A stretch of DNA of 40,141 nt from an uncultured Candidatus Saccharibacteria bacterium (lineage in GTDB: Bacteria > Patescibacteriota > Saccharimonadia > Saccharimonadales > Saccharimonadaceae), in NCBI GenBank assembly GCA_946186455.1, contig CAMHNK010000004.1, positions 1 through 40,141 of the forward strand. The letters run 5' to 3'. Of the stretch, positions 15,992-18,404 are shown piece by piece (position 1 is the first letter of the stretch; each line of letters starts with the position of its first letter). The translations under genes were made by a program, and so were the position numbers. The notes beneath the pieces are model-generated. The model was not told the DNA's origin and ran no database searches. It saw only the letters and a list, made by a program, of their open reading frames with translations.

Positions 15992-16981
15992 TTAACCTCT
16001 AGGTGGTTCGCCATCTGGCTCGCCGAGTAGTTTCTTAGACTTAATCTCATAGCGGCGGCCATTCACTGGCGACACATAATAATCTTCGTTGAGTAAATTC
16101 ACAAACATCGTGAGATCTTTATCATCCATGATGATAATTGATCCGTCATCGTCCGTCATCAGCTCAAGTTGCATCTCATCAGCGTAATCGAGGAGCTTAT
16201 CTTGTGGCATTTCTTCGGCGATATCCATTGCCTGAAGCTTTTTTAGTACCGGTTTCTTATCTTGAAGGAGACCATCGAGGGTTAAACCTTCCGCAAATGA
16301 CAACTTATATTTATCCGTTAGTTCTTTAGCTTTAGCCTCGGCAATCACTTGAGATTTATAATCGTATTGGAATAAATTCTCAAACTTAGCCTGGTTAAAT
16401 ACAATAATATTACCATCGACGATTGCGACTTGATTATCATCCGGCATTTTAAGAGCGATTTCAGCCGAAAACGGCTCGAAGCTTTCACCATTAATCTCCC
16501 AAGAAGAGGTACCTTTAAGGGCGGATGAAGCGGAAATAATCTTCGCAATATAGAAAGTTTTCATTCCAGATTCACCTGGATAAGTGAATTTAGCGATAAT
16601 CCCTTTAACTTTCTTAAAGTCATATTCATTTTCGGAGAAATAATCAATGTCTTTGTATTCGTTCTCAATTAAGTGCACCAAAGTCTCAGCGCGGCCCACC
16701 TTGGAAAGGGAAGTACGATAAATCACCTTCTCTTCACCATCGGCCTTCTCGTATTCGCGGCACTCGAGCCCCTTATCGGCCTCTTCAATGATGTAATGGA
16801 TCGCCTCTTGCATGAACATCGATTTCACCGCACCGGTGAGTTTGTCCGAGTATTTAATCTTATATGGCGTGTAATTCTTATTAAACAAAAACAGCTCTGC
16901 TGAAACGTTGTTTTTTACCTCATCAATCTCGTTCGCCCAGAGAAAGACGTCAAACGGTTCGTTTTCCATGATTATCTCCAC
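15992..16981 (-). CDS. DUF4868 / Kiwa KwaB-like protein
   Basis: C-terminal MDDKDLTMFVNLLNEDYYVSPVNGRRYEIKSKKLL, middle VDGNIIVFNQAKFENLFQYDYKSQ. Confidence 0.6.
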   Translation of the reverse strand: MEIIMENEPFDVFLWANEIDEVKNNVSAELFLFNKNYTPYKIKYSDKLTGAVKSMFMQEAIHYIIEEADKGLECREYEKADGEEKVIYRTSLSKVGRAETLVHLIENEYKDIDYFSENEYDFKKVKGIIAKFTYPGESGMKTFYIAKIISASSALKGTSSWEINGESFEPFSAEIALKMPDDNQVAIVDGNIIVFNQAKFENLFQYDYKSQVIAEAKAKELTDKYKLSFAEGLTLDGLLQDKKPVLKKLQAMDIAEEMPQDKLLDYADEMQLELMTDDDGSIIIMDDKDLTMFVNLLNEDYYVSPVNGRRYEIKSKKLLGEPDGEPPRG

Positions 16982-17132
16982 TTATTTGAAGTCATTATAG
17001 CACAAATCCCGAATTTACCAAATTTCCTCTGTTTGTTCGGTTTTTACACCACAAAATTAAAACAAATGCAATAACACGTGTTCGGTTTTTTAACAGGGGA
17101 GTTGTCCACAACTTGTGCAAAACTATAGGATC

Positions 17133-17190
17133 AAAAAAATCTAAAAAAAGTCTAAAAAAGCTCTTGCTTTTTATTAGAAAGTAGTATAAA
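17133..17190 (+). promoter_or_regulatory. Phased A-tracts plus putative promoter upstream of dcw cluster
   Basis: A-tracts at 17133-17139, 17143-17149, 17154-17159 then TTGCTT ... TATAAA. Confidence 0.5.
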
Positions 17191-17246
17191 CTAGAGTCAA
17201 GTGGAAATCATACATAAACACCACAAACAAACAGCACATTAAAAAA

Positions 17247-17515
17247 GTTTGAGATCGGCCAACTAGGAGCTTTAGCACGCATTAATTTGTAGCGAGATGC
17301 GTCAAAACAATCGTGTGCACCTTCCTCAAAAACACACCTCCCAATAAAACTCTATAGACCAATAGGTCAATCTAATTAACACAATAAGTCTCTCAACGGC
17401 TGCGATTATATGATTAGCTTCGCGCTGGTACAATCGTGGTAGATTCATTGTGAAAATCAAACAAAAATCATAACAGAAACAAAAATGCTAAGTTTCTAGT
17501 TGATCGGTCTCAAAC
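17247..17515 (+). ncRNA. Candidate structured leader RNA (or TIR-bounded element) upstream of rsmH
   Basis: GTTTGAGATCGGCCAACTAG (17247-17266) pairs with CTAGTTGATCGGTCTCAAAC (17496-17515): 20 positions, one mismatch, two G-U pairs. Confidence 0.55.
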
Positions 17516-17531
17516 AATGTATAATATTGGT

Positions 17532-18404
17532 ATGGAGAACCAACATATCCCTGTACTAATGTCTGAAGTGTTAGCAAACCTTAACCCCAGACCAGGCGAA
17601 AAATATTTAGATCTAACCGCTGGCCTCGGTGGGCACGCTAAGTCAATTTTGGATGTAACACTGAATTATAAAGAATCGGTTTTGGTTGACCGCGATGAAT
17701 TTGCAATAGCTCATCTAAAGCAAAAATTCAAAGAGGGAATCGAGATCATAAACACAGACTTTTATGGCGCAGTGCTACAGTTAATTGAGTGTGGAAAAAC
17801 TTTTGACATTATACTCGCTGATTTTGGTGTCTCATCGCCGCAACTAGACAATGGGGAACGTGGCTTTTCTTTTAAGAACGACGGACCACTAGATATGCGG
17901 ATGGATCGGCGCCAGGCCTTGACAGCAGATGAAATTGTCAATCACTGGAGCGAAAAAAACCTTGCGGAAATCTTTGCGAAATATGGAGAAGAGAAACCCG
18001 GTCACGCAAGGCTCTTAGCACGGGAAATAGTACATGAGCGCCCGATCAAATCAACCGCAGAACTTGCCAGTATCATAGCCAGTAAGTCCAGACACTCTTC
18101 CATCCACCCAGCTACGAAAATCTTCCAAGCCATTCGGATAGTAGTAAACGACGAACTGACAGAGATTGAAAAAACTCTGCCTCTTCTACCGAAACTACTA
18201 AATAAAGATGGTAGGGTCGGCATCATCACCTTCCATAGCCTCGAAGATCGCCTTGTCAAAGACTTTTTTAGGGAGGCCTCAAGCCACGGTGAAGAATCTG
18301 AACTTCGTCTAGTTAATAAAAAACCAATTGAAGCGGCAAAACCGGAGTTAGTTATCAACCCGCGTTCTAGAAGCGCCAAATTGCGAGTAGCAGCGCGGAA
18401 TTGA
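17532..18404 (+). CDS. rsmH: 16S rRNA (cytosine(1402)-N(4))-methyltransferase
   Basis: HIPVLMSEVLANLNPRPGEKYLDLTAGLGGHAKSIL; DFGVSSPQLD; RGFSF. Confidence 0.96.
   Translation: MENQHIPVLMSEVLANLNPRPGEKYLDLTAGLGGHAKSILDVTLNYKESVLVDRDEFAIAHLKQKFKEGIEIINTDFYGAVLQLIECGKTFDIILADFGVSSPQLDNGERGFSFKNDGPLDMRMDRRQALTADEIVNHWSEKNLAEIFAKYGEEKPGHARLLAREIVHERPIKSTAELASIIASKSRHSSIHPATKIFQAIRIVVNDELTEIEKTLPLLPKLLNKDGRVGIITFHSLEDRLVKDFFREASSHGEESELRLVNKKPIEAAKPELVINPRSRSAKLRVAARN

Follow-up and report, generated by a model that had tools for sequence, protein, structure and literature searches.

What stands between the cell-division genes of this Saccharibacterial contig and the sequence upstream of them? The original prediction described a large leader of rsmH, closed by a long helix, whose folding could gate translation, and offered a small MITE as the alternative. 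Comparison of the window (the whole 40,141-nt stretch of DNA analysed) with related genomes indicates that the element is a structured RNA of the class Saccharimonadia, found directly upstream of rsmH in nearly every member searched. The comparative anatomy of the element (Table 1) is solid; what can be said of its function from sequence is not on the same footing.

Table 1 Features of the element and its surroundings in the window
Feature	Position	Strand	Basis or remark
Three phased A-tracts (UP-element-like)	17133-17159	+	Sequence; A-rich block conserved in congeners
RNA promoter, TTGCTT (17164-17169), 17 bp, TAAACT (17187-17192)	17164-17192	+	Same layout in congeners; start predicted at about 17199
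Genus-level 5' hairpin AGTGG/CCAC	17200-17224	+	AGCG/CGCT instead in relatives; judged by eye
boxA-like motif GCACATTAAAA	17234-17244	+	Directly 5' of the closing helix; degenerate in window and genus
P1, 5' arm	17247-17272	+	20/22 order-wide pairs changed on both sides
P2 hairpin	17278-17301	+	Loop AGCGA (17291-17295) forms pseudoknot; comparative alignments
Pseudoknot, 3' side ATCGT	17310-17314	+	Partner is loop 17292-17295; 4/4 order-wide pairs double-sided
C-rich unpaired core ACACACCTCCCAATAAAACTCTA	17332-17354	+	ACCTCC inside, as in the anti-Shine-Dalgarno end of 16S rRNA
3' domain	17380-17452	+	Two helices and conserved loop
3'-domain helix CACAAT/ATTGTG	17380-17385/17447-17452	+	91% of cells paired; 4/6 pairs double-sided
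3'-domain loop AAGTCTCTCAACGG	17386-17399	+	Conserved
3'-domain helix GCTGCGATT/AATCGTGGT	17399-17407/17432-17440	+	99% of cells paired; 6/9 pairs double-sided
A-rich, G-poor unpaired linker (AAACAAAAATC...AGAAACAAA)	17453-17488	+	Conserved in class
P1, 3' arm	17490-17515	+	Pairing and order-wide covariation
TATAAT, probable -10 of leaderless rsmH promoter	17520-17525	+	-10-like hexamer also in the genus and sister genus
rsmH (mraW), first gene of the dcw cluster	17532-18404	+	Pfam Methyltransf_5, E 9e-93

Fold and conserved parts

A recount of the closing helix P1 confirms the 20-bp near-perfect helix originally described, with its one non-pairing position and two G-U pairs: 17247-17266 and 17496-17515 form 17 Watson-Crick pairs, two G-U pairs and one mismatch, with the predicted span of about 229 nt (229 by our count) inside. 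P1 extends to 25 of 26 paired positions once two more G-U pairs are counted. The 281-nt fold has a predicted energy of –76.7 kcal/mol, compared to –47.7 ± 4.6 kcal/mol in shuffled sequences (z = –6.26; 0/200). The relatives, aligned upstream of rsmH as had been proposed, display strong double-sided changes, and this covariation together with the fold score supports the claim of selection on RNA structure. P1 has the character of a leader-trailer helix, a long covarying helix that closes the transcript, with 20 of its 22 order-wide pairs double-sided; two positions (alignment columns 16/391 and 20/387) are mostly mismatched. In one divergent locus (L243) P1 is redrawn and almost perfect.

Across the order (51 sequences; P1, P2, the pseudoknot and a fourth helix) 87.3% of cells are paired and 27 of 35 pairs have changed on both sides. 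The covariation score of 0.385 compares with 0.198 ± 0.007 for shuffled partners and at most 0.139 for slid ones, and it is to be read with the scored pairs having been picked after the alignment was viewed, which biases the scoring in their favour within the bounds set by the sliding control, and with a shared kinship of the sequences that sliding does not remove. The fourth helix is visible in some sequences only and has no double-sided changes. Within the genus (29 loci), 19 of 40 predicted pairs are double-sided.

The pseudoknot occurs as CAAG:CTTG, CCAG:CTGG, AGAG:CTCT, AGGG:CCCT and other variants, so that all four pairs covary. The core is near-invariant and G-poor, bears CACCTCC and counts 17 C and one G in 38 nt. 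Its ACACCTCCC is invariant in 29 congeners and 51 order-wide sequences, the 38-mer CACCTCCCAAAACTCCACCTCACACATAAGTCTCTCAA is identical across many families, and other orders of the class retain ACTCCACCTCAC. The helix was rightly observed, but the earlier description says too little: it lacks the boxA-like motif, the pseudoknot, the TATAAT at 17520-17525 and the near-invariant C-rich core. As to the inner hairpins it listed, CGCAT..ATGCG is conserved with covariation, while GACC-aata-GGTC is a variable hairpin that is not conserved.

Distribution in the class Saccharimonadia

The host genome of ~0.7 Mb carries a single copy of the element, and the stretch aligns upstream of rsmH in genomes of the same genus, of which the closest (G021) has an rsmH 88% identical. 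With a model built on the 3' domain (R1), all 42 genomes of the genus give one match each. Other genera of the family give weaker matches, again single, and in all of the 20 loci examined from other genera the element lies directly before rsmH. We also scanned one genome per species (85,462 species) with the two core motifs only, blind to rsmH. Among the matches listed, 78 of 80 loci are Saccharibacteria records, or unnamed or Patescibacteria bins with the same layout. The two others, in a Flavobacterium (L119) and a Marinimicrobia genome (L139), have neither arms nor rsmH and are chance matches. In all 73 testable loci among the matches listed, rsmH follows 107-410 nt 3' of the motif on the same strand; five others run off the contig. 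Synteny with rsmH in relatives, which the original prediction expected of a leader, holds in these 73 loci, and the check on copy number proposed at the time returns a single, syntenic copy instead of many.

The exact core pattern is present in 228 of 394 class genomes, with 0 for the reversed control. In 26 genomes picked because they lack the exact pattern or belong to other orders, arms and core are readable before rsmH in nearly all. Even in two strongly divergent loci (L261 and L243) the arms and parts of the core are still visible. A further model (R2) matches 34 of 36 class genomes; one of the two misses is recovered by R1, and the other is a genome in which no rsmH was found. Outside the class, about 348 genomes from the remainder of the phylum gave R2 no convincing match; the four weak ones were inspected, lie nowhere near rsmH and are attributable to chance. 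Three assemblies (G362, G433 and G203) contain two core-pattern matches each, probably from mixed or duplicated contigs.

Promoter and boxA-like motif

The A-tracts that precede the RNA promoter recur about every 10 bp, in agreement with the 10-10.5 bp given before. The promoter proposed there, TTGCTT/TATAAA, finds support in the congeners, with TTGNNN and TANNNT separated by 17/18 bp at the same place in 25 of 30 (one of the remaining five is truncated), though the –10 element is better read as TAAACT. A start of the RNA at about 17197-17200 is a fair guess. In three loci (L238, L022 and L030) extra segments of ~80-100 nt are inserted between the RNA promoter region and the closing helix.

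A boxA pattern lies within 75 nt of the arm in 69 of 93 loci; it turns up in 1.4% of windows placed at random in these loci and in 0.9% of shuffled sequences. This motif is shared with the 16S rRNA leaders of the class. In one genome (G232) it reads GTCCTTTAACAATT at the element and GTCCTTTGACAATT at the 16S leader, and a leader-trailer helix is present in that 16S unit as well. The element bears a boxA sequence near its 5' end as rRNA leaders do, more weakly in this genus. In E. coli, boxA recruits NusB and S10, and the resulting tethering is thought to aid formation of the leader-trailer helix (PMC10250234). Two of the 16S genes inspected (L206 and L207) have their own boxA, a leader-trailer helix and a terminator-like hairpin shortly after; the 23S gene does not directly follow the 16S gene in the stretch seen, and boxA itself can pair with the trailer.

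The rsmH start and mraZ

According to the relatives, the ATG at 17532 is the true start of rsmH, and the open reading frame from 17517 is a longer mechanical call; the right arm of P1 indeed stops 16 nt before the start, as first stated. A TATAAT-like hexamer is found 6-9 nt before the rsmH ATG in 22/22 loci of the genus and 20/20 loci of the sister genus (42/42), with TATAAT six nucleotides 5' of the ATG in the window's genus (22/22). This placement predicts a leaderless rsmH mRNA that does not contain the element. A –10-like hexamer precedes rsmH in 15 of 22 other family-type loci and in 3 of 24 environmental loci, which have an A-rich leader there instead. In the deeper lineages that lack the TATAAT, the element is, to judge by this arrangement, a true read-through leader or an intergenic RNA. 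The word "leader" in the original prediction is thus apt for those lineages. Within the class, the 3' arm can be as close as 16 nt to the rsmH start or more than 200 nt away, with insertions between the two in other genera. Terminator-like hairpins follow the element in only three of about 93 loci (L082, L083 and L116), so read-through into rsmH is to be expected in most loci. Large palindromic insertions, MITE-like in look, separate the element from the rsmH start in L100 and L116. In five loci (L113 (L018), L099, L114, L026 and L027) inverted repeats of changing sequence span the rsmH TATAAT and end at the ATG; they might hide the start codon in read-through transcripts.

MraZ (PF02381) is encoded about half a kilobase 5' of the element in 17/17 genomes outside both genera. 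It is found in 0/18 genomes of this genus, which bears out the absence of mraZ noted earlier, and in 0/5 of the sister genus (0/23). From the distribution of MraZ and TATAAT across lineages we infer that the ancestral order was probably mraZ-RNA-rsmH in one transcript. Later, rsmH probably gained its own start and mraZ was lost in this genus and its sister, with the RNA kept, here behind its own promoter.

Possible function of the RNA

The reading that we favour, tentatively and with slightly less than even confidence, is that of a class-wide RNA of ~300 nt that is boxA-led, processed and noncoding, and carried in the dcw operon. RNA polymerase carrying boxA-bound NusB-S10 would transcribe the untranslated element without Rho termination, and, in the manner proposed for pre-16S rRNA, it would keep hold of the 5' arm until the 3' arm has been made. 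P1 would then close, and processing of P1 of the RNase III type would part the RNA from the downstream rsmH mRNA; in a few lineages a terminator could do so instead. Once freed, the RNA would base-pair or bind protein through its C-rich core (ACCUCC), and translation is the most plausible setting for this. This function in trans is the weakest step of the proposal. Several observations argue for a noncoding RNA: its structure, one copy per genome, the synteny with rsmH, the boxA shared with 16S leaders, the terminator-like hairpins in three loci and the precedent of boxA and leader-trailer helix in E. coli pre-16S rRNA. The RNA was moreover kept, with its own promoter, after mraZ was lost and rsmH had gained its own –10, and this retention in full argues for a role of the RNA itself. 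Against it stand the unbroken synteny, which argues for a role in cis (the element is never found away from rsmH, a position that a free trans-acting gene would not need), the read-through expected where terminators are lacking, and a boxA that is degenerate in the genus and whose pattern about a quarter of loci lack in the 75 nt next to the arm.

The core resembles an anti-Shine-Dalgarno sequence (ACCTCC, present also in GGATTACCTCC at the 16S 3' end), a likeness that is no more than suggestive. A search of 16S rRNA found no conserved target for the core, and a guide RNA for rRNA was rejected because shuffled cores match 16S equally well. Within the window, the reverse complement of the invariant 12-mer, used as a target search, does not occur above chance and octamers resembling Shine-Dalgarno sequences are not enriched; AGGAGGT precedes several of the open reading frames there, yet not above chance overall. 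It is rather unlikely, in our estimate, that the full chain of suppositions holds: a Saccharibacteria-wide housekeeping RNA, made by the rRNA-style route of boxA and closing helix in a cell-division operon, whose near-invariant core acts in trans on ribosomes or on the initiation of translation and so ties division-gene output to translation.

The RNA could instead act in cis, as a leader of the dcw operon in which boxA and the folded RNA protect the polymerase from Rho at the core, which is G-poor, C-rich and rut-like. Transcription of rsmH and the division genes would then follow the state of Nus factors and S10 or a ligand bound at the pseudoknot domain. We regard this as a serious possibility, though a doubtful one. 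Strict synteny and strand with rsmH in every lineage agree with it, as do the boxA, the composition of the core (17 C and one G in 38 nt) and the environmental loci, 21/24 of which have an rsmH without its own –10, behind the element with an A-rich leader. However, in all 42 loci of the genus and its sister a TATAAT belonging to rsmH lies between the element and the gene, and the element is still fully conserved, terminator-like hairpins part the two in three loci, and exact conservation of the core exceeds what Rho needs. For a ligand-binding riboswitch or a ribozyme, in which conserved loops and pseudoknot would form a binding or catalytic pocket, one can cite the pseudoknot, the invariant unpaired segments and the position before a biosynthetic operon. 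We consider it improbable: unlike most riboswitches, the element occurs once per genome and before no gene but rsmH, rather than before several regulated genes of one pathway, and it has no consistent expression platform, a terminator-like hairpin being present in 3 of about 93 loci.

That the hairpin gates translation of rsmH by hiding its start, as first suggested, has in its favour the arm ending 16 nt before the ATG in the window, but the ATG lies outside the helix, arm and start can be 16 nt or more than 200 nt apart depending on the lineage, a difference of hundreds of bases, and rsmH, with its own TATAAT-like hexamer in 42/42 loci of the genus and its sister, appears leaderless in the window. 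The suggestion is largely refuted and we hold it to be very improbable. A MITE with 20-bp terminal inverted repeats would explain the inverted arms about 270 bp apart. It is rejected with near certainty, since there is one copy per genome in a fixed place, always upstream of rsmH across the class, with covarying arms and no dispersed copies with target duplications.

Relation to known RNAs

In Rfam 15 no family scores above its gathering threshold for the element; the whole window gives one tRNA only, and 11 diverse loci give weak chance matches. The covariance model of the mraW RNA motif (RF01746) matches neither the window stretch, searched to E = 10, nor any of 11 element loci, searched to E = 5. 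RNase P RNA (RF00010) was rejected, as it lies on another contig of the same genome and elsewhere in four relatives, and 6S RNA (RF00013) has no match in five genomes of the genus; it is, like the element, a long helical bacterial noncoding RNA, but the element has no large promoter-like bubble. Processive antitermination RNAs such as rrn boxA, phage HK022 put and EAR/LoaP are also structured RNAs or boxA sequences heading long operons; the element has no sequence relation to them and its antitermination is only predicted. S. aureus RNAIII and C-rich sRNAs have a long-range closing helix and unpaired C-rich, anti-Shine-Dalgarno-like loops, which the element shares by analogy only; in contrast to them it is embedded in the dcw operon, has a boxA and has no known targets. 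The closest likeness in plan is to the pre-16S rRNA leader, in E. coli (PMC10250234) and in Saccharibacterial 16S units, where a boxA-type motif is followed by a long helix of leader and trailer arms, whereas the element belongs to the dcw operon, has no homology to rRNA and holds about 230 nt, none of them rRNA, within its helix. The mraW RNA motif of Actinomycetales, listed in PMC2864571, is likewise a conserved RNA named for mraW/rsmH, but it belongs to other taxa, and the boxA, pseudoknot and core of the element are not reported for it in the text consulted. The open literature searched contains no prior description of the element. It may be described as an operon-head structured RNA with rRNA-type biogenesis signals, and a categorically new role is possible.

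Saccharibacteria are widespread, ultrasmall and parasitic on other bacteria, and oral members have been cultured; to our knowledge no lineage-wide regulatory or housekeeping RNA is known for them. The RNA is probably important to these organisms, being kept in nearly all class members searched and sharing its boxA signal with their rRNA leaders. Its near-universal presence in the genomes checked, its covarying pairs, which number in the dozens, and a 38-mer shared unchanged by many families imply strong constraint in reduced genomes. With an rRNA-type boxA and closing helix outside rRNA, it can be tested directly if other RNAs too are made by that machinery. A covariance model of the element would mark the RNA in many genomes in which its sequence at present passes for unannotated intergenic DNA.

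Flanking sequences

Upstream of the RNA promoter, at 17102-17123 and 17032-17090 of the window, are a DnaA-box-like inverted pair, TTGTCCACAACTTGTGCAAAAC (genus form GTTTTCCACA..TGTGGAAAAC), and a repeated TTCGGT, which are possible regulator sites. A replication origin, considered on account of the upstream DnaA-box-like TTGTCCACA, was rejected, as GC skew shows no switch within the window. The minus strand at 15992-16981 encodes a KwaB-like (DUF4868) protein with no recognisable KwaA partner among its neighbours; in the majority of the genus the gene keeps its place beside the RNA and rsmH, and is therefore perhaps not a mobile defence gene.
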